Shown here in pieces: positions 11,024 through 58,249 of a stretch of DNA of 58,489 nucleotides. Under the pieces are notes generated by a model. The model was not told the origin of the DNA. It was given only the letters and a program-made list of their open reading frames with translations, and ran no database searches. This stretch comes from Clostridia bacterium (GTDB lineage: Bacteria > Bacillota > DSM-521 > Neomoorellales > Neomoorellaceae). How positions within the stretch are numbered: position 1 is the first letter of the stretch; each line of letters starts with the position of its first letter. Both the position numbers and the translations under genes were made by a program. Where the stretch lies: positions 1 to 58,489 of the forward strand of contig JASUSV010000007.1 of NCBI GenBank assembly GCA_030445865.1, given 5' to 3'.

Positions 11024-12475
11024 ATGCGTTATAACCTGGTAACCCGAATTCTGGGAAAAATTATAATCTTGGTCGGTTTTGCCCTTATAATTCCCGTAAT
11101 ATTGGCCCTATACTTCCAAGAAAAGGAATGGAAAGCCTTCGCCTATAGCACAGTTATAGCTTTAGCCATCGGTTTCCCTTTAAGCCGTTGGCCTTATAAC
11201 AATGGAGAAATCCGCCGGCGCGAAGGTTATGCGATTGTGGCCTTGAGCTGGGCAGCAGCCTCGATTTTCGGCTGCCTGCCTTATCTTTTCGCCGGGACTT
11301 TTACAAACTTTGCCGATGCCCTCTTTGAGACCGTATCCGGTTTTACTACCACGGGTGCCAGCGTCATGACGGACATTGAGATACATGCCCGCTCCATCCT
11401 TTTCTGGCGCAGCCTGACCCAGTGGCTGGGCGGCATGGGGATCGTCGTGCTTTTTGTAGCCTTGCTTTCCCAACTCGGTGTTGGAGGTCTACACATGCTC
11501 CAGGCAGAAGCGCCCGGACCGGTGACTGAAAAACTAAAGCCCCGCATCCAGGAAACGGCTAAAATCCTGTGGCTAACTTATGTAATCCTGTCTGCCGCCG
11601 AAGCCCTTTTGCTCTGGCTTACCGGCATGCCGCTGTACGAAGCCGTCGTCCATACTTTCAGTACTATGGCTACCGGCGGCTTTTCCAGTAAAAATGCCAG
11701 TATCGGCCATTATGAGAGCCCGTTGATACATTGGATTATTATTATCTTTATGTTTTTAGCCGGCGCTAACTTTGCCCTCTACTACCAGGCTTTAAGACAA
11801 AAAAATCCCCTTTATTTCTGGCGCAATCCAGAGTTCAGATTATATACCCTGATAACCTTGGGGGCAACCATCACCATCGCCCTTGATCTCTTCATTAGGG
11901 GATACTACCGGGGTGAAAATCTTATCCGCCAGGCGGCTTTTCAGGTGACTTCGATCCTTACTACCACCGGCTTTGCCACCGCAGATTTTGATACCTGGCC
12001 CAGCTTTTCACGGCTGCTTCTGCTGGTTTTAATGTTTGTCGGCGGGTGTTACGGCTCTACGGGCGGCTCGATTAAAGTAGGGCGCCACCTAGTACTATTA
12101 AAAAACGGCATGGTAGAGCTTTTCCGCGCCGTCCACCCCCATGCCGTCCTGCCAGTTCGCCTGGGCAACGCAGTCGTGGTTAAAGAAACCCTGATTTTAA
12201 ATATCCTGCAATTTATCGGTCTTTATTTATTAATTTTTGCCCTGAGTACCCTATTACTTGTCTCCCTTACCGGGCTGGATATGGAAAGCGCCGCCAGCGC
12301 CGTGGCCGCTACTTTAGGGAATGTCGGCCCCGGCCTGGGCGTCGTCGGCCCCACCCAGAACTATGCCCACCTGCCGGCGGCGGCCAAATACCTCCTCTCC
12401 TGGCTCATGCTCGTAGGGCGCCTGGAGATCTATACAGTCCTGGTATTGTTCTTGCGGGCTACGTGGAAGAGGTAA
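11024..12475 (+). CDS. trkH: Trk/Ktr potassium transporter membrane subunit
   Basis: 483 residues with about ten membrane segments and four P-loop-like repeats. The selectivity-filter loops are seen as ETVSGFTTTGASV, STMATGGFSSKN, SILTTTGFATAD and TLGNVGPGLG. It forms the ion path with TrkA as gating subunit. The 3' end overlaps the 3' end of the convergent sigma-54 activator gene by 17 bp, and no terminator is visible between them. Confidence 0.94.
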   Translation: MRYNLVTRILGKIIILVGFALIIPVILALYFQEKEWKAFAYSTVIALAIGFPLSRWPYNNGEIRRREGYAIVALSWAAASIFGCLPYLFAGTFTNFADALFETVSGFTTTGASVMTDIEIHARSILFWRSLTQWLGGMGIVVLFVALLSQLGVGGLHMLQAEAPGPVTEKLKPRIQETAKILWLTYVILSAAEALLLWLTGMPLYEAVVHTFSTMATGGFSSKNASIGHYESPLIHWIIIIFMFLAGANFALYYQALRQKNPLYFWRNPEFRLYTLITLGATITIALDLFIRGYYRGENLIRQAAFQVTSILTTTGFATADFDTWPSFSRLLLLVLMFVGGCYGSTGGSIKVGRHLVLLKNGMVELFRAVHPHAVLPVRLGNAVVVKETLILNILQFIGLYLLIFALSTLLLVSLTGLDMESAASAVAATLGNVGPGLGVVGPTQNYAHLPAAAKYLLSWLMLVGRLEIYTVLVLFLRATWKR

Positions 12476-14210
12476 CATCATTCCTATATTTTTGCCACTT
12501 ACGTACAACCGTGGACTGGTCGATTTCCAGCGCCCTGGCTACTTTGCGCGTTGTGCCGTAGCGGGCAAAAGCCAGGGCGAAAAGCTGGCGCTCGGTTTCT
12601 TCTAAGGCGCGGCGCAAGGGGATGATTGTATTTACAACTATTTCGCGGTTAGGGGAAGGCTTTTGTAAGTAAGAAGGTAGATGTTCGGGCCTAATTTCTT
12701 CCCCTTCTGCAAGGACTAAAAGCCGCTCGACTAAATTTTCAAGCTCGCGTACATTACCGGGCCAGGAATAATCCATGAGCAACTCGACAGCCTGGCTATG
12801 GAAGCGGTACCGGGTCCCATACTTTTTATTAAATTTTTCTACAAAATGGTTAACTAAAAAAGGTATTTCTTCCTTCCTCTCCCTTAGAGGCGGCACGATG
12901 ATAGGGACTACATTCAATCGATAATATAAATCTTCACGGAAAGCACCTTCACGGACCATTTTTTCTAGGTCGCGGTTGGTAGCAGCGATAACGCGGATAT
13001 CCAATTTCACAGGCTTAGTCCCACCAACACGGTAAATACGTCCGTCCTGAATTGCCTGGAGCAGTTTAACCTGGATATTAAGGGGGAGTTCGGCGACCTC
13101 ATCCAAGAAGATGGTTCCCCCGTTGGCCAGCTCAAACATCCCCGCCTTACCCTCACGGCTGGCTCCTGTAAAAGAACCCCGTTCATAACCAAATAGCTCC
13201 GATTCTACCAAGGTTTCGGGAATGGCTCCGCAATTGACTTTAATATAGGGACCCGCAGATCTGCGGCTGGTTTCGTGGATAAAACCGGCCACTACGTCTT
13301 TGCCAACACCTGATTCGCCTAATATCAACACTGTAGAATCTACGGCCGCAACCTTTAAAGCTACTTCAAAAACCTTCTGCATAACTTTACTGTGGACGAC
13401 AATATCCCGCGTTTTTCCTTGCAAGAGCTGCAGCCTTTTTACTTCAGCAGCATAAGATGCAGCCCTTTCCCTTGCGCGGCTAAGCTCTTCATTTAAACGG
13501 ATGATTTCGCTTATGTCGCGGACGTTAGTCACTATCCGCCAGATGTTGCCTTGGTCATCGAAAACCGGCGTGGCTGTAACCATAGCCCGTTTTCCGGTAA
13601 TAATGTCGTGGATTAGGGTTACCGGCTGTTTGGTCTCCAGCACGTGCAGGGCTGCAGAATCCGAATAATAACCCTGACGCACCAAATCGCGCAAATTTTT
13701 ACCTACAACCTCTTCTCTTTTGATACCTGAAAAGCGCTCATAACCTTTATTTACTCTCAGGGTATTGCCTTCGCCGTCGCTTATCCAGATGCCGTCATAA
13801 GAAGCTTCCAGGATTGCGTCCAATTCCTTATTCTTCTCTTTTACCAAAGCCAGCTCTCGCACAGCCTCTTCCAGCGCCGATATATCTTGAAAAATCGAAA
13901 CCGCCCCTACGATCGCACCCTCCCGTATAATGGGGGTCCTATTGCTCAAACACGGTATATTGCCGAGATAATGGCGGTGATTATAGATCGGTTTTCCGGT
14001 ATGAAGCACATCAAGCAGCAAGGAGCCTGGTATTACCTCTTCCATCGGTTTACCCAACGCGTCTTCCGCTTTAATACCTACCAGTTTTTCCGCAGCCCGG
14101 TTAAAAACTTTAATCAGGCCGCGGTTATCGATAACAATAATAGCATTATAAGCAGAATCAAAAATGCCGTCTAATTCTTCAGGGGTAAGTTGTCCGAGGA
14201 GATGCGGCAA
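12459..14210 (-). CDS. Sigma-54-dependent activator with two PAS domains
   Basis: A 583-residue enhancer-binding protein. Two PAS domains (about 12-110 and 128-235) precede a short coiled segment, an AAA+ domain (about 265-500; Walker A GESGVGKD at 298-305, Walker B GGTIFLDEV) and a TyrR/RocR-like helix-turn-helix at the end (TTRKVARALEIDQSTVVRKW). There is no receiver domain, so it probably senses a small molecule directly. The sigma-54 contact loop reads GSFTGA (345-350) instead of GAFTGA. The TTG start has AAGGAGG 7 nt ahead. It lies just downstream of the LarA/ABC operon, whose promoter is of sigma-54 type, and is the best candidate for its activator. Confidence 0.93.
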   Translation of the reverse strand: MPHLLGQLTPEELDGIFDSAYNAIIVIDNRGLIKVFNRAAEKLVGIKAEDALGKPMEEVIPGSLLLDVLHTGKPIYNHRHYLGNIPCLSNRTPIIREGAIVGAVSIFQDISALEEAVRELALVKEKNKELDAILEASYDGIWISDGEGNTLRVNKGYERFSGIKREEVVGKNLRDLVRQGYYSDSAALHVLETKQPVTLIHDIITGKRAMVTATPVFDDQGNIWRIVTNVRDISEIIRLNEELSRARERAASYAAEVKRLQLLQGKTRDIVVHSKVMQKVFEVALKVAAVDSTVLILGESGVGKDVVAGFIHETSRRSAGPYIKVNCGAIPETLVESELFGYERGSFTGASREGKAGMFELANGGTIFLDEVAELPLNIQVKLLQAIQDGRIYRVGGTKPVKLDIRVIAATNRDLEKMVREGAFREDLYYRLNVVPIIVPPLRERKEEIPFLVNHFVEKFNKKYGTRYRFHSQAVELLMDYSWPGNVRELENLVERLLVLAEGEEIRPEHLPSYLQKPSPNREIVVNTIIPLRRALEETERQLFALAFARYGTTRKVARALEIDQSTVVRKWQKYRNDVTSST

Positions 14211-14294
14211 AGCAATTCCTCCTTAAATTCAAACCCTTCACTACCTTTTAAGTTAAATGTTATTATATTACCCCTTTCTATGACAATAGGTAAA

Positions 14295-14318
14295 TTAAAA
14301 GGCGGGGTTTTCCCCGCC
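14295..14318 (-). terminator. Terminator of the LarA/ABC operon
   Basis: GGCGGGG-AAAA-CCCCGCC with TTTT on both sides, between the LarA-like stop and the start of the PAS activator gene. It would end transcription that begins at the sigma-54 promoter at 20.25 kb. Confidence 0.85.
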
Positions 14319-14336
14319 TTTTCGCTCGTATTCTAT

Positions 14337-15743
14337 TTATTCCACATAGAACTGCAACCGCGGTTTACTCCAGAAGCTGGGTAGAACAATTACCCTGGGA
14401 TTGGGGCCTACTATCTGCTTGGCCCGGGCAAAGGCAATATCGAAATCCTTAACGGCTTCTACCCCCAGTTTGCGGAAGGCTCCGGGATTTTGAACGTTAG
14501 ACATAATAATCTTGCTGCAGTGGTCAACAATGTACTGGGATTCATAGAACAGCCAGAAAGGATGAATGGGATGATAACCATGGCAGTACCGATACTTAAA
14601 AACTAAATCTTCGCGATTTATAAATTCATCTTCATAATCATAAAGCTCTGCGGCTGTGAAGCAGCGGCTGTAAATATCCATAACTTCGTTGTAAGAGGGG
14701 TGCAAACGCTCGTTAACCTGGCCGTTCGACTGGGCTACCCCAATAACCACGCCCCCTTCGCGTACTAAGTGTTTGTTCACCCAGTGGCGCGGAGCGGTAG
14801 TGGTGCCGGTAAAGGCAATAAGCGGGTTATTGCTGTCGCCGTAAAGCAAAAACTGCGGAATACCTACAACCACTATATCCGCCTGCGGGCATCTAACCTG
14901 GTAGATAGATTCCACAAATTTCCACGCTGGCTCCTGGATCTCTTTATAATGCCCGGCCCATACATTGATAACCTGTCCGCCCTGGCCTACCGCGCAGTCG
15001 ACATAGAAGACCTTTTTACCGATAAACTTTTCTATCTGGTCCATCACGGCGTCTTTATGGCTACGGTAGAACATAGTCCTGGGATCGCCATGGCAGGAGC
15101 GGGGGTCGCCTACTACATCCCAGCTATGGGTAGAGCGCATACTCCGGGCGCTCGCCAGGCCGATAATCACGCCGCAGCCGGTCATACCGCCCCAGTTTGA
15201 AGACTGCACTGTACCGCAGTAAATAAAGAGGTCGGAGGTGGCCAAAAGTTTGTTATACTCTACGTAGTCTCCCATTTCGGAAACGCCCATATAGACCAGG
15301 CCGTCCGGGTCGGAGCAGTCGTGGTTTATCAGCCGGTTGGCGCTGCCCTTGGGCCAGAAACGCTCGAATACTTCCTGGCCTAAATAAGCGCGTAATTGGG
15401 CTTTAGTAAACTTGCAATGGTTGCCGGTAGCGCAGAGCAAGGTGATATCCTCATCAGGGATACCTGCCTGGTTAAGGACCTCCAGCAAAACGGGTATAAC
15501 TACCTGGCGCGGTGGAGCAGGGCGGCAGGGGTCGTCGAAGGCAATAGTAACTTTCATACCCTTCTTGGCCAGCTCTCTTAAGGGGGGCATGCCTAACGGA
15601 TTGTCTATGGCTTTACGCACCAGTTCCTGCGGATTCGGCGCTCCCGGCGGTGGGCTGGATTCCAGCACCAGGGCGTCTTCCGGTACATTAATATTAATCT
15701 TTTTATCCCAGTAGTCAACGGCTACTGTTTTGGTTCCGGCCAT
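14337..15743 (-). CDS. LarA-like (DUF2088) protein with altered cofactor site
   Basis: 468 residues, related to nickel-dependent lactate racemase and other 2-hydroxyacid racemases/epimerases. CATGNHCKF (His109) matches the first catalytic histidine region and STHSWD (His206) the nickel-ligand histidine. However the LarA segment that carries the cofactor-linked lysine (FSGGRK in L. plantarum) is here NWGGMTGCG, with Thr188 at the lysine position, and the preceding catalytic histidine also seems absent. It may therefore use the cofactor differently or do other chemistry. It is the last gene of the operon with the ABC transporter and flavin disulfide reductase, suggesting that all act on one imported compound. 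The alignment is by eye. Confidence 0.75.
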   Translation of the reverse strand: MAGTKTVAVDYWDKKININVPEDALVLESSPPPGAPNPQELVRKAIDNPLGMPPLRELAKKGMKVTIAFDDPCRPAPPRQVVIPVLLEVLNQAGIPDEDITLLCATGNHCKFTKAQLRAYLGQEVFERFWPKGSANRLINHDCSDPDGLVYMGVSEMGDYVEYNKLLATSDLFIYCGTVQSSNWGGMTGCGVIIGLASARSMRSTHSWDVVGDPRSCHGDPRTMFYRSHKDAVMDQIEKFIGKKVFYVDCAVGQGGQVINVWAGHYKEIQEPAWKFVESIYQVRCPQADIVVVGIPQFLLYGDSNNPLIAFTGTTTAPRHWVNKHLVREGGVVIGVAQSNGQVNERLHPSYNEVMDIYSRCFTAAELYDYEDEFINREDLVFKYRYCHGYHPIHPFWLFYESQYIVDHCSKIIMSNVQNPGAFRKLGVEAVKDFDIAFARAKQIVGPNPRVIVLPSFWSKPRLQFYVE

Positions 15744-15802
15744 ACAAATCCTCCTTTGATTTTTTATTAAGGGGGCAATTCAGGATCCTCCTATTTTTTG
15801 GA

Positions 15803-16031
15803 AGTGCTTCCAAACCAAGCGGCTTATGCCGGAGCGGAGGCGCCCGCTGCTAATGGCGACTTGCAAACCATGAGCTCTCTCGCTGACGGGTTTCCCGGCC
15901 AATTCGGCCCTCGCATTCTTAAGCGGCCAGCTCTTAGAGCCCTGCCCTTGGCCTCATGCCGGACTTGGTTTTGATAGCTCGCAAGCGCTCGCCATTCCAG
16001 ACCGCTCGCCGCCACCCACTCCGGCATCGGA
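15803..16031 (+). repeat. Dispersed MITE-like element, copy C (diverged)
   Basis: The interval between the LarA-like and flavoprotein genes holds a degenerate member of the family: GTGCTTCCAAACC and TTATGCCGGAG at one end, CACTCCGGCATCGGA at the other, and a recognisable core 'gggtttcccggccaattcgg'. Most of the rest has drifted. An open frame across it (15824-16027, minus) has no ribosome site or family and is not a gene. Being inside an operon, the element is part of its mRNA. Confidence 0.6.
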
Positions 16032-16034
16032 AAT

Positions 16035-17525
16035 CTACAGGCTCGTTAGATTTTTCTGCCCCGCTCTCAGCCTGGTCAACTGGATGAAATGTTCGGCGTT
16101 CAGGAATAACTCGTGGAAGGTGGCCATTTCATCAACGGTTAACCCCTTGTCCAACAATACAGCTAGATACTGGAAGGCCGCCTTTGCTCCATAACCTACA
16201 TGCCAGAATCCTACAAATCTCCTGGACTTAGGCTCGATTATCGCCTTCTGGAAGCCCGACATTTCTGGATGTACGTGAGCCATAATCATTGAGCGCTCGG
16301 CCAGCGGCAGGCCGATATCGAGGTTAAAGGGAGGCATTTTAATTACTACGGCATCGCCATATTGTTCCCGGCATTGCTTTTCCGTTAGGCCAACCCAGGT
16401 AACTTCGTAGGTAGTGAACATAAACTCGGGTATGGTGCGGTTGGGCATCTCTACGTCTTCGCCCATAATATTGCGGGCGGCGTACATGCCCGATTGCCTT
16501 GCCTTGGACATCACATAAGGTGGCCCGGTAACATCGCCAATGGCATACACGTTGGGAATGCTGGTCTGGAATTTCCTGTTGACGACAATTTCATTATTGG
16601 GTCCAATCTCCACGCCTAGCGGTTTAGCTATTTCGGAATTGGGTATAACGCCTGTACCTAGAAATACAGTATCGCAAGGAATTACTTTTTCTACGCCATT
16701 TTCTTCGATAACTACACCTTCAACTTTCTCCGTACCCCTTATTTCTTTGATTTTTACATTCTCATAGATCTTAATTCCGCGGCGCTTCATGTTGGAGATA
16801 ACGAATTCGCGCACATCGTCATCGAGAAAACGGTATATAGGCGAACGGTTAACTACAGTAACATCACAGCCGCAGGCGCGGAAGAAGGACGTATAACCGG
16901 CAGCCGTTTTGCCCGCACCGATAACCACAACTTTCTCCGGTTCATAATCGATGTTGACGAGCTCCCGGTTAGTTAAAACGTTCTTCAAGTGAACCCCAGG
17001 GATGTCCGGTATCCGGGGGCGGGCGCCTGTAGCGATAACTAAATTTCTGGCTTTATAACGCTCGCCATCAACCTCAACCGTATTGGGATCAACAATTTTG
17101 GCTTCCTTATAAATATCAAACTCTATACCAAGCTGATCTTTGCTCTGATCGGTCATAAACTTATAAACATTGGTATCCCTTACCTTTCTAAAAAGCTCGA
17201 AGATAGGTACCATAGGGATCTTGTCCGGTATTTCCGGCATCCAGGTTAAACCGGAAAACCAGCGTAAGTGATCCATGTAAACTGCGTTATCGTAAGCGAA
17301 ATGTTCCGGCACGCAGTTATGCTTGCAGCATTGACCTCCCAGGTGGTTATCCATTTCAAAAGTAAACTGCGTACCGCCCATGGCCCTTAAGAAAGCAGAA
17401 CCGAATCTCCCGGCAGCACCACCACCAATAAAGATGGCATCGTAAACAAAATCTTTTTTAGGTTTGGATAATGAAGTAGCAGGCGGGATGTAGATACTTT
17501 TGGTCGGCCAATTCAACCTTTTCAT
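16035..17525 (-). CDS. FAD-dependent pyridine nucleotide-disulfide oxidoreductase, mercuric-reductase-like
   Basis: 496 residues with an N-terminal FAD fold (FIGGGAAGRFGSAFL), a redox-type cysteine pair spaced C-X4-C (GGQCCKHNCVPEH), a NAD(P) fold (VVVIGAGKTAAG), the second FAD motif (NVYAIGDVTG) and a dimerisation domain. Two features depart from the family: PEH replaces the usual PSK after the second cysteine, and the C-terminal HPTxxE is replaced by a HELFLNAEH segment. So it may not be a dihydrolipoamide or mercuric reductase. It lies between the ABC ATPase (61 bp) and the LarA-like gene in the same operon. The substrate is unknown. Confidence 0.82.
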   Translation of the reverse strand: MKRLNWPTKSIYIPPATSLSKPKKDFVYDAIFIGGGAAGRFGSAFLRAMGGTQFTFEMDNHLGGQCCKHNCVPEHFAYDNAVYMDHLRWFSGLTWMPEIPDKIPMVPIFELFRKVRDTNVYKFMTDQSKDQLGIEFDIYKEAKIVDPNTVEVDGERYKARNLVIATGARPRIPDIPGVHLKNVLTNRELVNIDYEPEKVVVIGAGKTAAGYTSFFRACGCDVTVVNRSPIYRFLDDDVREFVISNMKRRGIKIYENVKIKEIRGTEKVEGVVIEENGVEKVIPCDTVFLGTGVIPNSEIAKPLGVEIGPNNEIVVNRKFQTSIPNVYAIGDVTGPPYVMSKARQSGMYAARNIMGEDVEMPNRTIPEFMFTTYEVTWVGLTEKQCREQYGDAVVIKMPPFNLDIGLPLAERSMIMAHVHPEMSGFQKAIIEPKSRRFVGFWHVGYGAKAAFQYLAVLLDKGLTVDEMATFHELFLNAEHFIQLTRLRAGQKNLTSL

Positions 17526-17586: not shown

Positions 17587-18351
17587 TCAATAAGCTTCTT
17601 TGTTCCCTCCCACCTCCCTTAACTCAGGCTCTATCATTTTTAATAATTGCTGGCGGATTTTATTGAATTGGGGTTCGGTGCGCTCGCGCGGCCGGGGCAT
17701 CTCTATAGGGACATCGGCTTTCAACCGCCCCGGCCTCCGGGTCAAGACCACCACCCGATCCGCCAGGAATACAGCTTCATCAATGCTGTGGGTGACCATA
17801 ACTACCGTCTTTTGTTCTTTAGACCAGATGCGTAACAATTCTTTTTGCAGTTCGTTTCGCGTCTGGGCATCTAGGGAACTAAAAGGCTCATCCATGAGCA
17901 AGACTTTCGGTCCGTAGGCCAGGGCTCTGGCCAGACCAGCCCGCTGGCGCATGCCCCCGGAGAGCTGCTGGGGGTAGTAATTCCCAAAGGATTTTAGTCC
18001 TACCAGTTCGAGATAAGCTTCTACTTTTTTATTTATTTCTTCCCTGGGCACCTTTTGGATTTCCAAACCAAAGGCTATATTTTTTTTGACGGTAAGCCAG
18101 GGAAACAGGGCGTCTTCTTGGAAGACAAAGCCGATCTCACCGTGCTCTACCGAAGGCGGCCGGCCATATAAAAGCACTCTACCGCTATCAGGAGTTATAA
18201 GCCCGGCAATTATTTTCAACAGGGTGGTTTTACCGCAGCCGCTCGGCCCAGTAAGGCAGACAAATTCTTGTTCGTTTACTTCAAAGGTCACATTATCCAG
18301 TACCCGCAATTCCCCGTATTTCAGCGAAACGTTTTCTACAGAAAGCGCCAA
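17587..18351 (-). CDS. ABC transporter ATP-binding protein, SsuB/TauB type
   Basis: The cytoplasmic ATPase of a nitrate/sulfonate/taurine-class importer. Walker A GPSGCGKTT, signature LSGGMRQRAG, Walker B VLLMDEP and the switch histidine (VMVTHSIDEA) are all present. The frame opens at 18375, but the better start is TTG at 18351 with ACGGAGG 8 nt ahead, giving 254 residues and a 16-nt overlap with the permease gene, a sign of translational coupling. Confidence 0.92.
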   Translation of the reverse strand: MALSVENVSLKYGELRVLDNVTFEVNEQEFVCLTGPSGCGKTTLLKIIAGLITPDSGRVLLYGRPPSVEHGEIGFVFQEDALFPWLTVKKNIAFGLEIQKVPREEINKKVEAYLELVGLKSFGNYYPQQLSGGMRQRAGLARALAYGPKVLLMDEPFSSLDAQTRNELQKELLRIWSKEQKTVVMVTHSIDEAVFLADRVVVLTRRPGRLKADVPIEMPRPRERTEPQFNKIRQQLLKMIEPELREVGGNKEAY

Positions 18352-19142
18352 GGCATGAGCCTCCGTTCCAGCCACAGCATACCCTGGTTTAAGATGTAAC
18401 CCACGGCGCCGATGGCAACTATACCGGAGAGGATTTCGGCGTTACGGCCTCCTAAGTTGTAGGCCGACCAGATGTAGTAGCCGATGCCCATTCTACCGCC
18501 AACGAATTCCGCCGCCACAATGCACATCCAGCCTACACCCAGACCTACACGGATGCCGGTAACTACGAGGGGGAGAGCTGAGGGAACCACTACTTTAAAG
18601 ATGATTTCCACGGGCTTGGCCCCGCAGGTACGGGCGGCATCCAGGTGGACCGGCTGAACTCCTTTTACTCCGGCCACAGTATTGACCAGCACCGGGAAGA
18701 AGACGCCCACAAAGACGACGAAGATCTGCACGTAAATCGTCGGCGAAGGTAGGGCGGCAAATAAGAGATAAGCGACGGGTATCCAGGCCAGGGGCGGGAT
18801 GGGGCGAAAAATTTCGATCAAGGTATTCAAGGCTGCTTCCGCGCTGCGCCACCAGCCCATTGCCAGGCCTAAGGGTATAGCCAGGATACAGCCGGCCAGC
18901 GCCCCCTCCATAACCACCTGCAAGCTGGACAGGGTTAACTCCTGGACGGTACGGCGGTAGTACGGGTCACCGGAGACTATTAGCCTTATTAACACCTTAA
19001 GTGTTTCTAAAGGCGTAGGTAATTGAAGCCAGCCCGCCCTGGCTGCCAGGTGCCAGGCAACCAAGAATAGCCCTAATGATAGAAAGCGGATTACGATATG
19101 GTGGTTTTGCTTTTTTTCGGCACCGTTAAGCAAATGACCCAT
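18336..19142 (-). CDS. ABC transporter permease, SsuC/TauC type
   Basis: A 268-residue inner-membrane subunit with about six membrane spans and the cytoplasmic EAA loop (DAARTCGAKPVEIIFKVVVP) that docks the ATPase. It begins 3 nt after the binding-protein stop and overlaps the ATPase gene. The class imports nitrate, sulfonates, taurine or related oxyanions and acids; the actual substrate cannot be read from the sequence. Confidence 0.92.
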   Translation of the reverse strand: MGHLLNGAEKKQNHHIVIRFLSLGLFLVAWHLAARAGWLQLPTPLETLKVLIRLIVSGDPYYRRTVQELTLSSLQVVMEGALAGCILAIPLGLAMGWWRSAEAALNTLIEIFRPIPPLAWIPVAYLLFAALPSPTIYVQIFVVFVGVFFPVLVNTVAGVKGVQPVHLDAARTCGAKPVEIIFKVVVPSALPLVVTGIRVGLGVGWMCIVAAEFVGGRMGIGYYIWSAYNLGGRNAEILSGIVAIGAVGYILNQGMLWLERRLMPWRFL

Positions 19143-19145
19143 AGT

Positions 19146-20192
19146 TTATTTAACCTGCACTTCTAACCCTGCCTGTTCGGCAATGCGGTCGAGCAAGAAG
19201 CCCTGGACTGTGCCTACGCCGGGAATGGCAATAGTCTTTCCGGCCAAATCTTTAATGGAGTTGATCTCTTTTTTGACCACCAGTGCCGAGCCTTCTTCAT
19301 TAGCCCCGGCGATGACCTTGATGGGGATGTTATCGTTAACCCTCTTTAAGGTTGCCGGCGCTCCTCCGAGGTAAGAAGCATCTATCTCTTTATTCTTAAA
19401 GCCTTCCATAACGGCCACACCGTTGGCAAATTCCTTGAGTTCTAAATTTTTGCCGGCAATAAGCCCCACCTGTTCGTAGTAGCCTTCTTTCTGAGCGATA
19501 TAAACGGCCAGTTCATGAAGGTCCTGGCGGAGATAACCCAGCCGCACCTTAATTTGGGAAGGGACAGGCGCGGGTTTAACGCCTTTAACACGGTCGTATA
19601 CTTCTGGGTTAAGGAACGCCTGGAAGAACTGGTCGTCATTGCTATAGCCCAGATCCTGGGGTTTTTTAACGATCAGCCCTTTTTTCTTTAATCCTTCGTA
19701 ATAATTACGGAACTCTTTCTGGTTGGGGAATTCCACGAATTTTATGGTCTTTAAGGCCTCTTTAGTCACTGCCTCGCTCTTACCGCCGAATTCCTGGGCG
19801 TACTTCAGTACTTCCCCTGCCTTTGCCGGGTCGTTGATAAAGTTTGTAGCCTGGAGGTGGGCCCAGGCTAAAGCCTGTTCTACTTCTGAAGGAATACTCG
19901 GGGCCACGGCCAGGACGCAGCAGGGGTGATTGGGCCAGAGATCTTTGGAAGAAACTAAAACCTTGCCTATCCCCTGCCCCACGGCATCGGCGTTAAAAGG
20001 CTCCCAGGCGACAAAGCCGTCAATCTCGCCGGATTTAAGCTGGTTCAACATGTTCGGGGGAGCGGTTTGGGTAACAAAGATTTTATCTTTTTGGGCAGCT
20101 GGCTTGGTACCTGGAGTACTGCAAGCTGTGATGAGTAATGTGAGAATTATCACGACCAACGCCGGTACCACAATTTTATACTTGCCTTGCAT
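19146..20192 (-). CDS. ABC substrate-binding lipoprotein, circularly permuted (NMT1/TauA-like)
   Basis: 348 residues: signal peptide with lipobox LITAC (Cys24), then two halves in the reverse of the normal order. Residues 36-205 match what is usually the C-terminal part of this family (MLNQLKSGEIDGFVAWEPF, then DLWPNHPCCVLAV). Residues 213-348 match the usual N-terminal part (IKVRLGYLRQDLHELAVYIA, EFANGVAVMEGF, AGKTIAIPGVGTVQGFLLD). The protein ends at AGLEVQVK, exactly where the first half would normally continue. The start is ATG at 20192 with AGAGAGGGG upstream; an earlier ATG at 20237 falls at the predicted transcription start. The permease and ATPase follow directly, so it is probably functional. 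Confidence 0.85.
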   Translation of the reverse strand: MQGKYKIVVPALVVIILTLLITACSTPGTKPAAQKDKIFVTQTAPPNMLNQLKSGEIDGFVAWEPFNADAVGQGIGKVLVSSKDLWPNHPCCVLAVAPSIPSEVEQALAWAHLQATNFINDPAKAGEVLKYAQEFGGKSEAVTKEALKTIKFVEFPNQKEFRNYYEGLKKKGLIVKKPQDLGYSNDDQFFQAFLNPEVYDRVKGVKPAPVPSQIKVRLGYLRQDLHELAVYIAQKEGYYEQVGLIAGKNLELKEFANGVAVMEGFKNKEIDASYLGGAPATLKRVNDNIPIKVIAGANEEGSALVVKKEINSIKDLAGKTIAIPGVGTVQGFLLDRIAEQAGLEVQVK

Positions 20193-20246
20193 ATCCCATT
20201 TTTCCCCTCTCTGGCTTTTTTCTTTAATTTCTCGCATTTACTTACT

Positions 20247-20263: not shown

Positions 20264-20316
20264 GGCAGGGGAGCTACTATTTCTCTCTTGTGTATCTGGA
20301 GTATCTCAAAAAAGGC

Positions 20317-20411
20317 GATGTTGACAAGCATCACCTACTTGAAAATCTTTAAAAAGAGCTGGTCCTTGAAAGCAATTTTCTGGACCATCCCTTGTGATGC
20401 ATGTCAACATC
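20317..20411 (-). promoter_or_regulatory. 18-bp inverted repeat: probable paired enhancer sites and/or atoE terminator
   Basis: Arms GATGTTGACAAGCATCAC (20317-20334) and GTGATGCATGTCAACATC (20394-20411) are inverted copies with one mismatch. Each arm is itself partly dyadic (GATG-N8-CATC). An inner TGGTCC/GGACCA pair (20360-20365, 20382-20387) lies between. On the minus strand the second arm is followed by GCC and TTTTTT, so it could end atoE transcription. The arms lie about 65 and 140 bp upstream of the P1 -24 element, centres 77 bp apart (near seven helical turns), as expected for activator sites. Both roles are inferred. Confidence 0.6.
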
Positions 20412-28078: not shown

Positions 28079-28918
28079 TTAATTCTGAAGCGGTTTGATC
28101 GCTCTAAATTTAATACTCGCTACTTTCCCTTGTACAGCCTCAAAATGTTCTCTTTGGAGAGGCGGAGTAAGCTCCCTAACCGGGCAGCTGACCATAACCT
28201 CAAGCTCTTCTCTGGAAAGTAACCGCCTGGCAAAAACTTCTACATGTTCAAAACCGGCCTCTCCAACTGCCCTTAAGTATTCCTTTTCCTCCATACCCGC
28301 CCCTAAACAACCGGACCAGTTGCACCGAAAAATCTTTTGTAATTCAGGGTCTAATTTTTCCGTTAAAACAATATCGGCTATCGCCATACGCCCACCGGGT
28401 TTCAAAACGCGATAAGCTTCCCGGTAGACGGCATATTTATCTAAAGACTGGTTAATGGCACCGTTAGATATAACAACATCTACCAGGTTACTTGGTAGCG
28501 GTAGTTTCTCCATATCCGCAACCAGGAGTTCAACGTTGAAGCGCTGCAATCCTGCCTCGGCAATCACTTCTCTCGCGCGCTCAATCATTAAAGGGGAAAG
28601 ATCTACCCCTATTACCTTTCCTTTCGGCCCTACTTTATGGGCGGCCAAAATTACATCAATGCCTATACCGCAGCCGATATCAAGGACCGCTTCCCCCGGC
28701 CGCATATCAATAAATCTGGTAGGGGTTGTGCAGCCCATGGAGTAATAGAAGGCCGACCTTGGAACCAGGCAAACTTCTTCAGGTTCATAAAGCCTCTGGC
28801 CGACTATACCCACTCCCGCTCCCCCAATGTCAGGAGAGCGAAAATCTTTAAACCCTCCCCTCCTGACGAACTCATCGTAACGTTCTCTTATAAGGTTCTT
28901 AAGATCATGGTCAAGCAT
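28079..28918 (-). CDS. SAM-dependent methyltransferase, arsenite-methyltransferase-like
   Basis: 279 residues with a class I fold: motif I VLDIGCGIGIDV, then GVDLSPLMIERA, DMEKLPLP, and RVLKPGGRMAIADIV. The arrangement GCTTP before motif I and NWSGCLGAGMEEKEYL after it resembles ArsM. However the ArsM cysteine in SNCVINL is replaced (SNGAINQ), so arsenic may not be the substrate. It is 28 bp downstream of the CoA-transferase beta gene, so it probably belongs to the sigma-54 P3 transcript, which argues for a role in acid metabolism instead. Confidence 0.75.
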   Translation of the reverse strand: MLDHDLKNLIRERYDEFVRRGGFKDFRSPDIGGAGVGIVGQRLYEPEEVCLVPRSAFYYSMGCTTPTRFIDMRPGEAVLDIGCGIGIDVILAAHKVGPKGKVIGVDLSPLMIERAREVIAEAGLQRFNVELLVADMEKLPLPSNLVDVVISNGAINQSLDKYAVYREAYRVLKPGGRMAIADIVLTEKLDPELQKIFRCNWSGCLGAGMEEKEYLRAVGEAGFEHVEVFARRLLSREELEVMVSCPVRELTPPLQREHFEAVQGKVASIKFRAIKPLQN

Positions 28919-28945
28919 ACTACCTCACCTTAAGAAGTTTAAATC

Positions 28946-29617
28946 TTACGAAGCCAGCTCTAGATCCATCTTAGTTACCTTTTCCGGGATAATCAACCTG
29001 GCGCCGGTACGCTGTATTACTTCGGGTACAGTGGTGTCTGCGGCTATTTCTTTGAGCAATAAGCCCTCCGGAGTAACCTCGATGACCGCCAGTTCGGTAA
29101 CAATAAGGTCTACTTGTCTGGCGGCGGTCAGGGGTAAGGTGCATTGCTGCACGATTTTCGGGGTCCCGTCTTTAAGGTTGTGCTCCGTAGCTATAATCAC
29201 CCGCCTGGCCCCTACGGTCAGGTCCATGGCACCGCCCATGCCCGGCACCAGTTTGCCGGGGATCATCCAACTGGCAAGATTTCCCTGTTCATCTACCTGC
29301 AGGGCGCCTAGTACGGTAGCATCGAGGTGGCCGCCGCGGATAATGCTAAAAGACAAACAGCTATCAAAGCAGGCGCCGCCGGGGAGTATGGTAACAGGCC
29401 TCCCTCCGGCGTCCACTAAATCCGGGTCTTCCTGGCCGGGCTCCGGTGCCGGCCCCATACCTATGAACCCGTTTTCCGATTGCAACCAGACCTTGACGCC
29501 AGGCGGGAGGTAATTGGCCACCAGGGTAGGAAGCCCAATCCCCAGGTTTACCACGTCGCCGTTTTTAAGTTCCTGAGCCACTCTTTTAGCTATTAGAATT
29601 CTCTTATCATTGCTCAT
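28946..29617 (-). CDS. atoA: 3-oxoacid/acetate CoA-transferase, beta subunit
   Basis: 223 residues. The catalytic glutamate is Glu48 in LQSENGFIGMGP; GGACFDSCLSFSIIRGGHLDATVLG is typical of the beta subunit. The start is ATG at 29617 with GGAGG 8 nt upstream; an upstream TTG overlaps that site. It follows the alpha subunit by 19 bp. With the alpha subunit it would move CoA between acyl-CoAs and free short-chain acids in the cytoplasm. The exact acid specificity is not readable. Confidence 0.9.
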   Translation of the reverse strand: MSNDKRILIAKRVAQELKNGDVVNLGIGLPTLVANYLPPGVKVWLQSENGFIGMGPAPEPGQEDPDLVDAGGRPVTILPGGACFDSCLSFSIIRGGHLDATVLGALQVDEQGNLASWMIPGKLVPGMGGAMDLTVGARRVIIATEHNLKDGTPKIVQQCTLPLTAARQVDLIVTELAVIEVTPEGLLLKEIAADTTVPEVIQRTGARLIIPEKVTKMDLELAS

Positions 29618-29636
29618 ATAAGTTACCTCCAAGGTC

Positions 29637-30284
29637 TTAGAGTTTCACAATTAAATCTATGAAAAGGCCCGGGGTTATAACCTGGTCGGGATCTAGCTCT
29701 CCTATAGGTACGAGTTCCTCGACCTCGGCTATAACTAGGTCGGCGGCCATAGCCATAATGGGGTTGAAGTTTCTCGCCGAGCGCCTGTAGACCAGGTTTC
29801 CGGCCGCATCAGCCTTGTGGGCCTTGAGCAGGGCTACATCCGCCCTCAAGGGCAGCTCTAAAAGGTAACGGCGTTCGTTGACGGTAATTACCGTTTTGCC
29901 TTTTTCCACGGTGGTACCCACACCGGTCGGCGTTAAAATACCTCCCAAGCCGGCGCCTCCGGCACGGATCTGTTCGGCCAGGGTCCCCTGGGGGACCAGG
30001 GTTACTTCCAGCTTGCCGCTATTCATTAACTGCCCGGTGATGGGGTTGGTGCCGATGTGGGAGGCGATCACCTTTTTCAAGCAGCCGGCATCTACCAGTT
30101 TGCCGTTACCCCGACCGGGGAAGGCGGTATCATTTGAAATAAGGGTTAAATCACGCACTCCTTTAGCCACTAAAGCGTCAATAAGGCTTTCCGGTGTCCC
30201 CACCGCCATAAAGCCGCCGACCATGATAGTCATGCCGTCTTTTATGTGCGAGACTGCCTCTGCTGCTGTTACCGTTCTAGCCAT
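29637..30284 (-). CDS. atoD: 3-oxoacid/acetate CoA-transferase, alpha subunit
   Basis: 215 residues. [17 protein letters not shown] near the N-terminus and [11 protein letters not shown] in the middle are alpha-subunit signatures. The start is ATG at 30284 ([11 protein letters not shown]) with GGAGG 7 nt ahead. The open frame continues upstream through the promoter and into the broken thiolase remnant, but that part is not translated with it. Sigma-54 promoter P3 lies 46 bp upstream. First gene of the alpha-beta-methyltransferase operon. Confidence 0.92.
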
Positions 30285-30329
30285 AAAGCGCACCTCCAAA
30301 GCAATAAAACGAGCCTGCCTTTCGCCACT

Positions 30330-30346
30330 AGCAACTTTCATGCCAG
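30330..30346 (-). promoter_or_regulatory. Sigma-54 (-24/-12) promoter P3, CoA-transferase operon
   Basis: Minus strand CTGGCATGAAAGTTGCT, identical over all 17 bases to P4, with the 10-bp GG-to-GC spacing. Predicted transcription start is about 30320, 36 nt before the alpha-subunit ATG. Confidence 0.85.
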
Positions 30347-30384
30347 AACAAGAGGCAGGCCGTAGTCGAACAAAGGTAGGGGCG

Positions 30385-30428
30385 CAAAAAAGAAGGCCCT
30401 TTTGCGCTAGCTGCGAAAGAGCCTTCGC
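30385..30428 (-). promoter_or_regulatory. Hairpin/palindrome upstream of P3 (terminator and probable activator site)
   Basis: Minus strand AAGGCTCTTTCGC pairs with GCGCAAAAGGGCCTT and is followed by TTTTTT, so it can end upstream transcription. Within it the near-palindrome GCGAAAGAGCCTTCGC (30413-30428) is repeated almost exactly at the same distance from P4, about 77-85 bp upstream of the -24 element, which is what an activator site for an AtoC-like protein would look like. Confidence 0.6.
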
Positions 30429-30898
30429 ACTACCATAGCTATTCCCTGGCCGCCACCGACGCACGATGTTGTACTTAACAGCAATATTTTCTGCCGTCAG
30501 GCCCATGTGGTAGTCGCCAAAGGGGCACCAGAGCCCGTCGTGAATCATACCGTCTACAAGTTTATCATGGCCCATACGGTAACCAAACCTGGCTTTAGGT
30601 ATGTAATAAGGAACGCCGCTCATGCTCATACTTTATTAATCGTAAAGGAAGGCACCCCGGCAGGTGTACCCGCCGCCATAGCCGCCTGCCGGGCCGGGTT
30701 AATCCCCTGCCCCGCCTGCAGGACATTGCCCATAATGACCTCGTCCACGGCATTCGCATTTATACCCGCCCTTTTCAGCACCGCCTCAATGACAATCCTG
30801 CCCAGTTCTACCGCCGGCACCTGCGCTAGGCTCCCGCCCAGGTCGCCAATAGCGGTGCGCGCGGCAGCCACAATCACCGGTCGCGGCAATTCCCTCAC
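30408..30898 (-). pseudogene. Acetyl-CoA acetyltransferase (thiolase) with two internal deletions
   Basis: Three collinear pieces of one thiolase. The first (to 30626) is the N-terminal 90 residues, [12 protein letters not shown] to PSFTINKV, stopping just before the catalytic cysteine. The second (30629 to about 30467) resumes at [18 protein letters not shown] and runs to [14 protein letters not shown]. The third, in another frame, is only the last 18 residues, [15 protein letters not shown] to the stop at 30408. About 30 residues including the active-site Cys and then roughly 250 residues including the other active-site residues are gone. It still has a perfect sigma-54 promoter (P4), so decay may be recent. 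Confidence 0.88.
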
Positions 30899-56569: not shown

Positions 56570-58249
56570 TCACCTACTCAGCAAAGCGAGCTGCTTCAAG
56601 TCGTGCCAGACAGAATAAAATGATTCCTGCTTGCAACGGTCCAAACCGTTATATACGGGAATCTTTTCGTCCAGCCGGTTGAAAAGCCGCTTCACCTTTC
56701 GGGTCATCCCTCTTCCTTCCCCAGGTAAGGAATTGACCTTTTGGTTCAGCTTTTCTATGACAGCCTGGATTTTTTGCTTCAGTTCATCGGTAATTAGTTC
56801 CTTGAAGCCAATCGCCCGGCGGGCGATAACCAGAGCGGCGGCGTGGTGAACGGTTATGCCGTACCGCTCCATGTACTTGTAATAGCCGATGATGGAGGTG
56901 TGGGCGGGCCGGACCTGCTTTACACCTACCCCTTCCTTGAGGGCGCGCCGGATAACAGCTTCGGTCATTTTCCTGAACGGGAAGTTGGCCGCCATGCGGT
57001 TGAATTTCTTGCTGGCGTCCAGCCGGTCTTTTCCGAAGTCCAGGCCCTCTAATGCGGTGGGCTTGCCCAGAGCTTTGGCGATGTCCACCACCACTTTGGC
57101 CAGCACGCCTATCAGGTAGGTGCGCCGGTAACTTCCGCTATAAGCCAGTTCAGGTATTTTGATATAAAGAAAGCCGTTGGGATGAACAATTACCTGGAAT
57201 TCCCCGGCAAATTTATGCAGTGCCTTCGGGTAAGGAACAGCGAATCCTTCCGGCCAGGGTTCGGGTTGGCCGAAATAATTGACGTTGGCCAAAGCCACCC
57301 CGTCCGGGTTGGTGTCCATCCCCAGGTAGCCCCGGTTGGGATTGGTCACCGGTTCAGGTGCTGCTATGGTGAAGGTGATGTGCACCCTGTACCGGCCGTC
57401 CCGGCCTCTGATTAACTCGACGTTATAGGGAGCGCAGGAAAGAAGAGACTCCCACACCTTGAGCCGGTGCTTTTCCGGCAGCCAGAGCTTTCCCGTTACC
57501 CGGGGAGCCCTCGTCATTACCGGTCTACCTTTGCTGTCTGTGCCTTTTTGCTCCGAAAGGTGAGAGACGGTCACGGAAAGAGCAAATTCACCGTTCCGGT
57601 AATGTATCTTGATGTTCGGGTTGCCGCCCTTGGTTTCGTCTCCCCGGGCGTACAGCCGGTTCTGCCGGGCCTGACGCCATTCTTCTTTTGCGGCTCTGCC
57701 TTTGCAGACCTGTTTCCACAAAGAACGGCCGCCGAAAACTACTGTGGGTATGGTACCGTTATTTTGATGGATTTTCAGCTCATCCAGTTTATCGTTTAGT
57801 TTTTTGACCCGCGCTTTGCGGCCGTGTACGGTGCGTTCGGCTTTCTCGATTTTTACCGGATTGCCAGTTTTTATCGCTGTGGCCAGGTCTTTTTCTGCCC
57901 GGCCAAGCTTCTTCTTTGCACGGGCAAGTTTCGTTTCAGTTTCTTCGATTTCCAGGGCCAGCAGTTCTTTTTGGGAATCGGTGATTTCTCTCGCCTTAAG
58001 GATGGCGTCGTCCACATAGCGGGAGTTTAAGCCGAATACTTCCTGGCCTTCTTTTTTGAGTTCTTCACGGGAACGGCCTTCCAGCAGCCGGTTGAAGGCC
58101 CAGCGCTCGCACGAGCAAAAAAGGCGCATCTCGGTGGCCAGAGGGTCTTCTTCCCCGGGCTTGATTAAGCCGCGCTTTTCCCAGTTGCGCAGGCTGTTTG
58201 GGTGGACGCCCAACTTTTTTGCCGCTTTGCTTATGGTTAAAAGTTCCAT
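56570..58249 (-). CDS. TnpB-related protein with N-terminal MerR-type helix-turn-helix
   Basis: 559 residues. Residues 1-31 (LTISKAAKKLGVHPNSLRNW) form a MerR/IS607-TnpA-type helix-turn-helix, joined to a TnpB-like body: helical N-terminal lobe (40-90), long charged coiled coil (90-160), beta-rich wedge, then RuvC-like segments with Asp312 (GYLGMDTNPDG) and Glu401 (ALEGLDFGKDR). The zinc-ribbon between RuvC-II and III is missing (PAHTSIIGYYKYMERYG), and the third acidic residue seems replaced by His468 (TVHHAAALVIARR). No transposase gene is nearby. It may be an RNA-guided nuclease or DNA-binding protein, an IS remnant, or a domesticated regulator. SD is weak. Confidence 0.82.
   Translation of the reverse strand: MELLTISKAAKKLGVHPNSLRNWEKRGLIKPGEEDPLATEMRLFCSCERWAFNRLLEGRSREELKKEGQEVFGLNSRYVDDAILKAREITDSQKELLALEIEETETKLARAKKKLGRAEKDLATAIKTGNPVKIEKAERTVHGRKARVKKLNDKLDELKIHQNNGTIPTVVFGGRSLWKQVCKGRAAKEEWRQARQNRLYARGDETKGGNPNIKIHYRNGEFALSVTVSHLSEQKGTDSKGRPVMTRAPRVTGKLWLPEKHRLKVWESLLSCAPYNVELIRGRDGRYRVHITFTIAAPEPVTNPNRGYLGMDTNPDGVALANVNYFGQPEPWPEGFAVPYPKALHKFAGEFQVIVHPNGFLYIKIPELAYSGSYRRTYLIGVLAKVVVDIAKALGKPTALEGLDFGKDRLDASKKFNRMAANFPFRKMTEAVIRRALKEGVGVKQVRPAHTSIIGYYKYMERYGITVHHAAALVIARRAIGFKELITDELKQKIQAVIEKLNQKVNSLPGEGRGMTRKVKRLFNRLDEKIPVYNGLDRCKQESFYSVWHDLKQLALLSR

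Follow-up and report, generated by a model that had tools for sequence, protein, structure and literature searches.

The window, that is, the whole 58,489-nucleotide stretch of DNA analysed here, very probably encodes a substrate-binding lipoprotein of the NMT1/SsuA/TauA superfamily that is naturally circularly permuted and functions in an ABC importer of the NitT/TauT type. The permuted protein is predicted to fold as a two-lobed Venus flytrap in which both hinge crossings are retained, to bind its ligand between the lobes by residues from both halves and, with its membrane tether on lobe II rather than lobe I, to hand the ligand over to the permease. This shift of the tether from one lobe to the other would be the only consequence of the permutation that the model allows us to name.

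The gene and its parts

The plus strand of 19146–20192 is closed by stop codons, and the open reading frame sits on the minus strand, running from 20237 to 19146 (Table 1). An internal ATG at 20192 (M16), preceded by GAGGGG, is the likelier start and would yield the shorter, 348-aa product; the preliminary description had ended the gene at this same position. The hydrophobic stretch of the protein closes with the lipobox ITAC at Cys39, and a lipobox-like cysteine is found in all 19 aligned permuted homologues.

In the structural model, the half that is C-terminal in native proteins and now comes first comprises the second part of lobe II, a hinge strand and the C-terminal helices of lobe I. 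The native N-terminal half, now last, comprises the start of lobe I, the first hinge strand and the first part of lobe II, and the chain ends with the helix VQGFLLDRIAEQAGL followed by a short strand. The linker that joins the old C-terminus to the old N-terminus is 6–7 residues longer in relatives, where it carries a conserved W.P motif.

Table 1 Features of the permuted gene and its operon in the window
Feature	Position	Strand	Basis or remark
Permuted substrate-binding protein gene	19146..20237	-	363 aa; likely true start ATG 20192, 348 aa
Lipoprotein signal peptide, lipobox ITAC with Cys39	20121..20192	-	Sequence
Native C-terminal half, now first (aa 50-218)	19584..20090	-	Pfam NMT1_2 151-249, rotated profile, model
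Linker, old C-terminus to old N-terminus (aa 219-228)	19554..19583	-	
Native N-terminal half, now last (aa 229-363)	19149..19553	-	NMT1 6-118, TIGR01728 1-129, model
TauC/SsuC-like ABC permease, cognate	18336..19142	-	BPD_transp_1 E 3.8e-20
TauB/SsuB-like ABC ATPase, cognate, overlaps permease end	17587..18375	-	ABC_tran E 9e-35

The two halves are swapped relative to homologues

Pfam NMT1_2 matched the permuted protein in two stretches (E = 8.7e-31), with positions 151–249 of the profile falling on aa 50–145, while positions 6–118 of NMT1 (E = 1.7e-9) fell on aa 244–359. The better of two stretches matched by TIGR01728 (NCBIfam SsuA_fam) placed profile positions 1–129 on aa 231–360. Against solved structures, TauA 28–118 aligned to aa 261–350 and TauA 129–175 to aa 52–100, and the native joint near TauA residue 126–130 is the meeting point of the two ends of the permuted protein. 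The positions of these matches show that the halves are swapped.

We then compared a profile of six such proteins in permuted order (A1) with one in which the proteins were cut at the linker and the halves swapped back (A2, the rotated profile). Positions 104–306 of the rotated profile align to aa 15–218 of the permuted protein. Rotated positions 33–225 align to TauA 28–218 unbroken across the joint (E = 6e-15), whereas the permuted profile gives no unbroken match. Among the proteins scanned, 20 permuted ones appeared as one domain to the permuted model and as two to the rotated model; for ~40 native proteins the pattern was reversed. A separation this clean in both directions excludes chance. 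Across 398 genomes of the phylum, A1 at E < 1e-30 recovered only permuted genes, in 14 genomes from seven families. In the same 398 genomes, A2 matched native genes without a break at the joint (for example, 3–281 of 307, E = 1.4e-34), whereas its matches to permuted genes fell into two pieces, in swapped order; each full piece of a permuted gene scored ~200 bits or more, and no whole native gene exceeded 129 bits.

The halves are thus swapped relative to homologues, and homology extends over the full length after rotation, which constitutes a circular permutation. The preliminary description had proposed exactly this for an NMT1/TauA-like lipoprotein binding protein and had called for an alignment to unpermuted relatives with the halves exchanged; the Pfam, TIGR01728, TauA and A1/A2 comparisons bear the proposal out.

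The chain is opened in the middle of lobe II

We used AlphaFold (AF2) with an input alignment (A3) of the window protein, the homologues L021 and L022, and halves of Thorarchaeota proteins. In line with the preliminary description, which considered a folded binding protein possible, both halves entered one confident two-lobed fold (pLDDT 91.1, pTM 0.87). Strands and helices follow one another in this model as in a type II binding protein whose chain starts in the middle: the permuted chain begins with the strand KIFVTQ, which in native proteins follows the helix VQGFLLDRIAEQAGL.

In SsuA of X. citri, domain I holds both termini, and residues 107–109 and 204–211 form the hinge (PMC3839906). By our mapping, SsuA Ser141 starts the helix equivalent to the last helix of the permuted protein. 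In the model, the cut is therefore in mid-lobe II, between a helix and the next strand and about midway between the two hinge crossings. The preliminary description had placed it near the hinge, which disagrees with both the model and the SsuA domain limits (PMC3839906). A cut inside lobe II keeps both hinge crossings, which makes a working flytrap easier to understand.

Foldseek matching is sequential and requires the same chain order. The permuted model gave 8 PDB matches at E ≤ 1e-3, the best being OpuAC with a TM score of 0.40, whereas the native Thorarchaeota sister gave 635 at the same threshold (best E = 1.5e-14), even though its model is less certain (pLDDT 72.5, moderate). The best matches of the native sister were to SsuA, NrtA, CmpA-type and Thi5 structures, with TM scores mostly of 0.6–0.79. 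This contrast is what a circular permutation predicts.

A conserved family under purifying selection

An initial search returned three full-length permuted homologues in one distant genome, G032. A scan of GTDB contigs with exact peptide patterns, which reaches close relatives only, added two (L021 and L022), one of them titled Syntrophomonas sp. Of the 14 genomes recovered with A1, two (G134 and G393) consist of a single contig; another three genomes, all from one class, likewise carry permuted genes, one of them only as fragments. In total, ~20 homologues keep the same half order and the same C-terminal end, answering the earlier question of whether relatives share the arrangement. The 19 full-length members align end to end with the linker region in common, and their shared final column holds K in 16, Q in two and E in one. 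A plasmid search returned only matches below 60% identity, at most 36% among the matches listed.

The open reading frame is intact in 19 of 19 full-length permuted homologues, and closer pairs of permuted proteins show dN/dS of 0.09–0.28. The permuted sequence is under purifying selection. The preliminary description mentioned neither that the permutation is a shared trait of a conserved family nor that natural permutation of binding proteins has precedents.

Origin of the permutation

We built a tree from 47 proteins, rotated or native, as well as separate trees of the N-half and the C-half. The permuted proteins form one clade (100/100), unbroken also in both half trees. The sister of this clade comprises native-order Thorarchaeota proteins (L023-L026) with moderate support (87/78), and the next branch, which is uncertain (86/40), is a native protein from G018, whose genome belongs to the same order as the window. 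A native-order relative in G018 (L003:799-1725 / L033) carries a stop codon near its N-terminus and is possibly a pseudogene or affected by a sequencing error. The Thorarchaeota proteins are 42–46% identical to the permuted ones in the N-half, and the two groups have motifs in common on both sides of the cut (DLHQLA, YLGxAPA and EGSA; FVAWEPFNA and HPCC).

A single, fully supported permuted clade nearest to native-order Thorarchaeota proteins suggests one origin, and these sequences are most simply explained by a native gene having been permuted once, in an ancestor. In that event, the old termini in lobe I would have been joined via a linker of ~10–17 residues, and the chain would have been opened anew in a loop of lobe II. 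Duplication, fusion and trimming are the usual route to circular permutation, and the gene most likely arose in this way, by tandem duplication and fusion with later loss of the outer halves. The preliminary description had likewise invoked duplication and trimming; this agrees with the standard model, although the loci found included neither a tandem nor a fused intermediate. The patchy presence of the permuted gene within families suggests horizontal transfer or loss, and its later spread may have been partly by horizontal transfer.

Operon, gene neighbourhoods and ligand

The permease gene starts 3 nt past the clean stop codon of the permuted gene, as the preliminary description had noted, and the two lie in one operon. 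A permease homologue adjoins 16 of the 19 permuted genes and an ATPase homologue 17. Together with the low dN/dS values, this adjacency makes a working importer component the most likely role of the permuted protein, judged from sequence. Two divergent permuted paralogues (L032:7468-8496 and L060:5265-6329) have no adjacent permease or ATPase, so not every member need belong to an importer. Their neighbours are radical SAM/B12 proteins, a prolipoprotein diacylglyceryl transferase and OsmC, and their lobe motifs are altered (VPGIFNLAS, HPDC).

A URO-D/MtaA-type methyltransferase gene lies directly upstream in 10 of the 19 permuted loci, usually accompanied by an MtrH-like protein, a corrinoid protein and its activase. 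The corrinoid methyltransferase cluster directly upstream (L030, L031, L056-L059, L062, L063, L066 and L067) contains a corrinoid protein, an AcsV-like activase, two URO-D/MtaA proteins and an MtrH-like protein, and these loci often also carry CobW, CMD and Hdr/Qmo-like genes. In the window (12459–17525 and 28079–30629) and in G067 (L068), the permuted gene instead lies near genes for a MerA-like flavoprotein, a LarA-like protein, a sigma-54 regulator, an ArsM-like methyltransferase and CoA-transferase. The ligand may thus differ from one member to another, and we can only guess from these neighbourhoods at a small organic anion or a methylated compound.

We considered a link to the mec dichloromethane cassette, which has similar protein types (URO-D/MtaA, MtrH-like, corrinoid protein and activase), and rejected it. 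The main text of the cassette's description mentions no ABC transporter or substrate-binding protein (PMC9768040), so, as far as that main text goes, the likeness does not allow a substrate to be inferred.

A strong stem-loop (20313–20411; two 18-nt arms and an inner hairpin, z-score −3.9) followed by TTTTTT lies on the minus strand of the window, in the gap that separates the permuted gene from the transporter gene upstream of it. Its arms are unique in the genome, and Rfam gave no credible match to this leader; from its sequence, it could be a terminator or an attenuator leader. Elsewhere in the window, a minus-strand open reading frame (56570–58249) has the look of a fusion between an HTH domain and a TnpB-like protein.

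Alternative explanations

The same arrangement of halves could in principle come from a chimera, in which the C-terminal half of one binding protein was fused to the N-terminal half of a different paralogue. The C-half tree, where branching among permuted, Thorarchaeota and other native groups is not resolved, leaves some room for this. However, the permuted set forms one clade in the tree of each half, motifs of the permuted proteins recur on either side of the cut in the Thorarchaeota natives (the first of them as DLHxLA), and AF2 packs both halves into one confident fold. We regard a chimera as very improbable. A scrambled, non-functional relic kept by chance deserves still less credence: the reading frames are intact in every full-length homologue, selection is purifying, the lipobox is conserved, as are the motifs of the lobes, and most loci have transporter genes next to the permuted gene.

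The source genome is a 90-contig draft, and a collapsed or misjoined tandem duplication might therefore be suspected. Such an artefact is next to inconceivable, since the same order recurs in ~20 homologues of independent genomes, two of them single-contig, purifying selection acts on permuted pairs, and only 3 nt separate the clean stop codon from the permease gene. Moreover, a collapsed N–C/N–C tandem would not yield C–N. For the family, assembly collapse is ruled out by the order kept across independent genomes, in agreement with the preliminary description, which had argued against an artefact. A different proposal goes further than ours: that these proteins are an undescribed, independent class of permuted type II substrate-binding proteins with the lipid tether on lobe II, in which the topology change itself was selected (for tethering, permease docking or export), possibly in convergence with OpuAC and MglB-2. 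We consider this unlikely and prefer the reading of a functional permuted lipoprotein of an NMT1/SsuA/TauA-type importer.

Few naturally permuted binding proteins have been described. The present family offers native-order relatives, a conserved joint and linker, and paralogues within single genomes, which makes the effects of permutation on folding, tethering and docking directly testable. It also illustrates how permuted proteins can pass unnoticed among ordinary ones in profile annotation, because the scores of the two swapped stretches add up to a single good score.

Comparison with known systems

The permuted protein resembles SsuA/TauA/NrtA-type binding proteins in its homology over both halves, its export signal and the TauC-like permease and TauB-like ATPase of its operon. 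It differs from them in that the halves are swapped and the termini lie in lobe II, not in lobe I as in the canonical order, and it scores 92.8 of the 163.5 bits set as the NCBIfam SsuA_fam cut-off. It is an NMT1/SsuA/TauA homologue by whole-protein sequence homology, with altered topology, and not a canonical member. The Thorarchaeota proteins are the nearest unpermuted relatives found; they share its motifs but differ in having the native order.

Within the type II fold, the glycine betaine-binding proteins provide a known natural case: OpuAC is permuted relative to ProX (PMC2395249). OpuAC was the top sequential Foldseek match of the permuted model over 293 columns, albeit at the low TM score given above, and as best fold match it may hint at a similar cut position there. 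The Pfam family of OpuAC had no match in the permuted protein at E ≤ 1, and the permutation event appears independent of OpuAC because the closest relatives are unpermuted NMT1 proteins.

The second precedent is Tp0684 (MglB-2) of Treponema pallidum, a permuted, lipidated binding protein, proposed as 'Type Ic', that binds glucose and changes conformation (PMC4990184). It is likewise a natural permutation of a lipidated binding protein, and its ligand binding was shown in that work. MglB-2 has a type I (cluster B) sugar-binding fold with permuted N-lobe strands and an added fourth hinge crossing, and its permuted part is weakly similar in sequence to its homologues. In the permuted protein described here, Peripla_BP_4 matched below the cut-off (E = 0.0024 over ~35 aa), which does not amount to type I/cluster B homology. 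Within the open literature, to which our search extended, we found no description of a permutation within the NMT1/SsuA group. Natural permutation of binding proteins was already known; the case in the NMT1/SsuA group is new and apparently independent.
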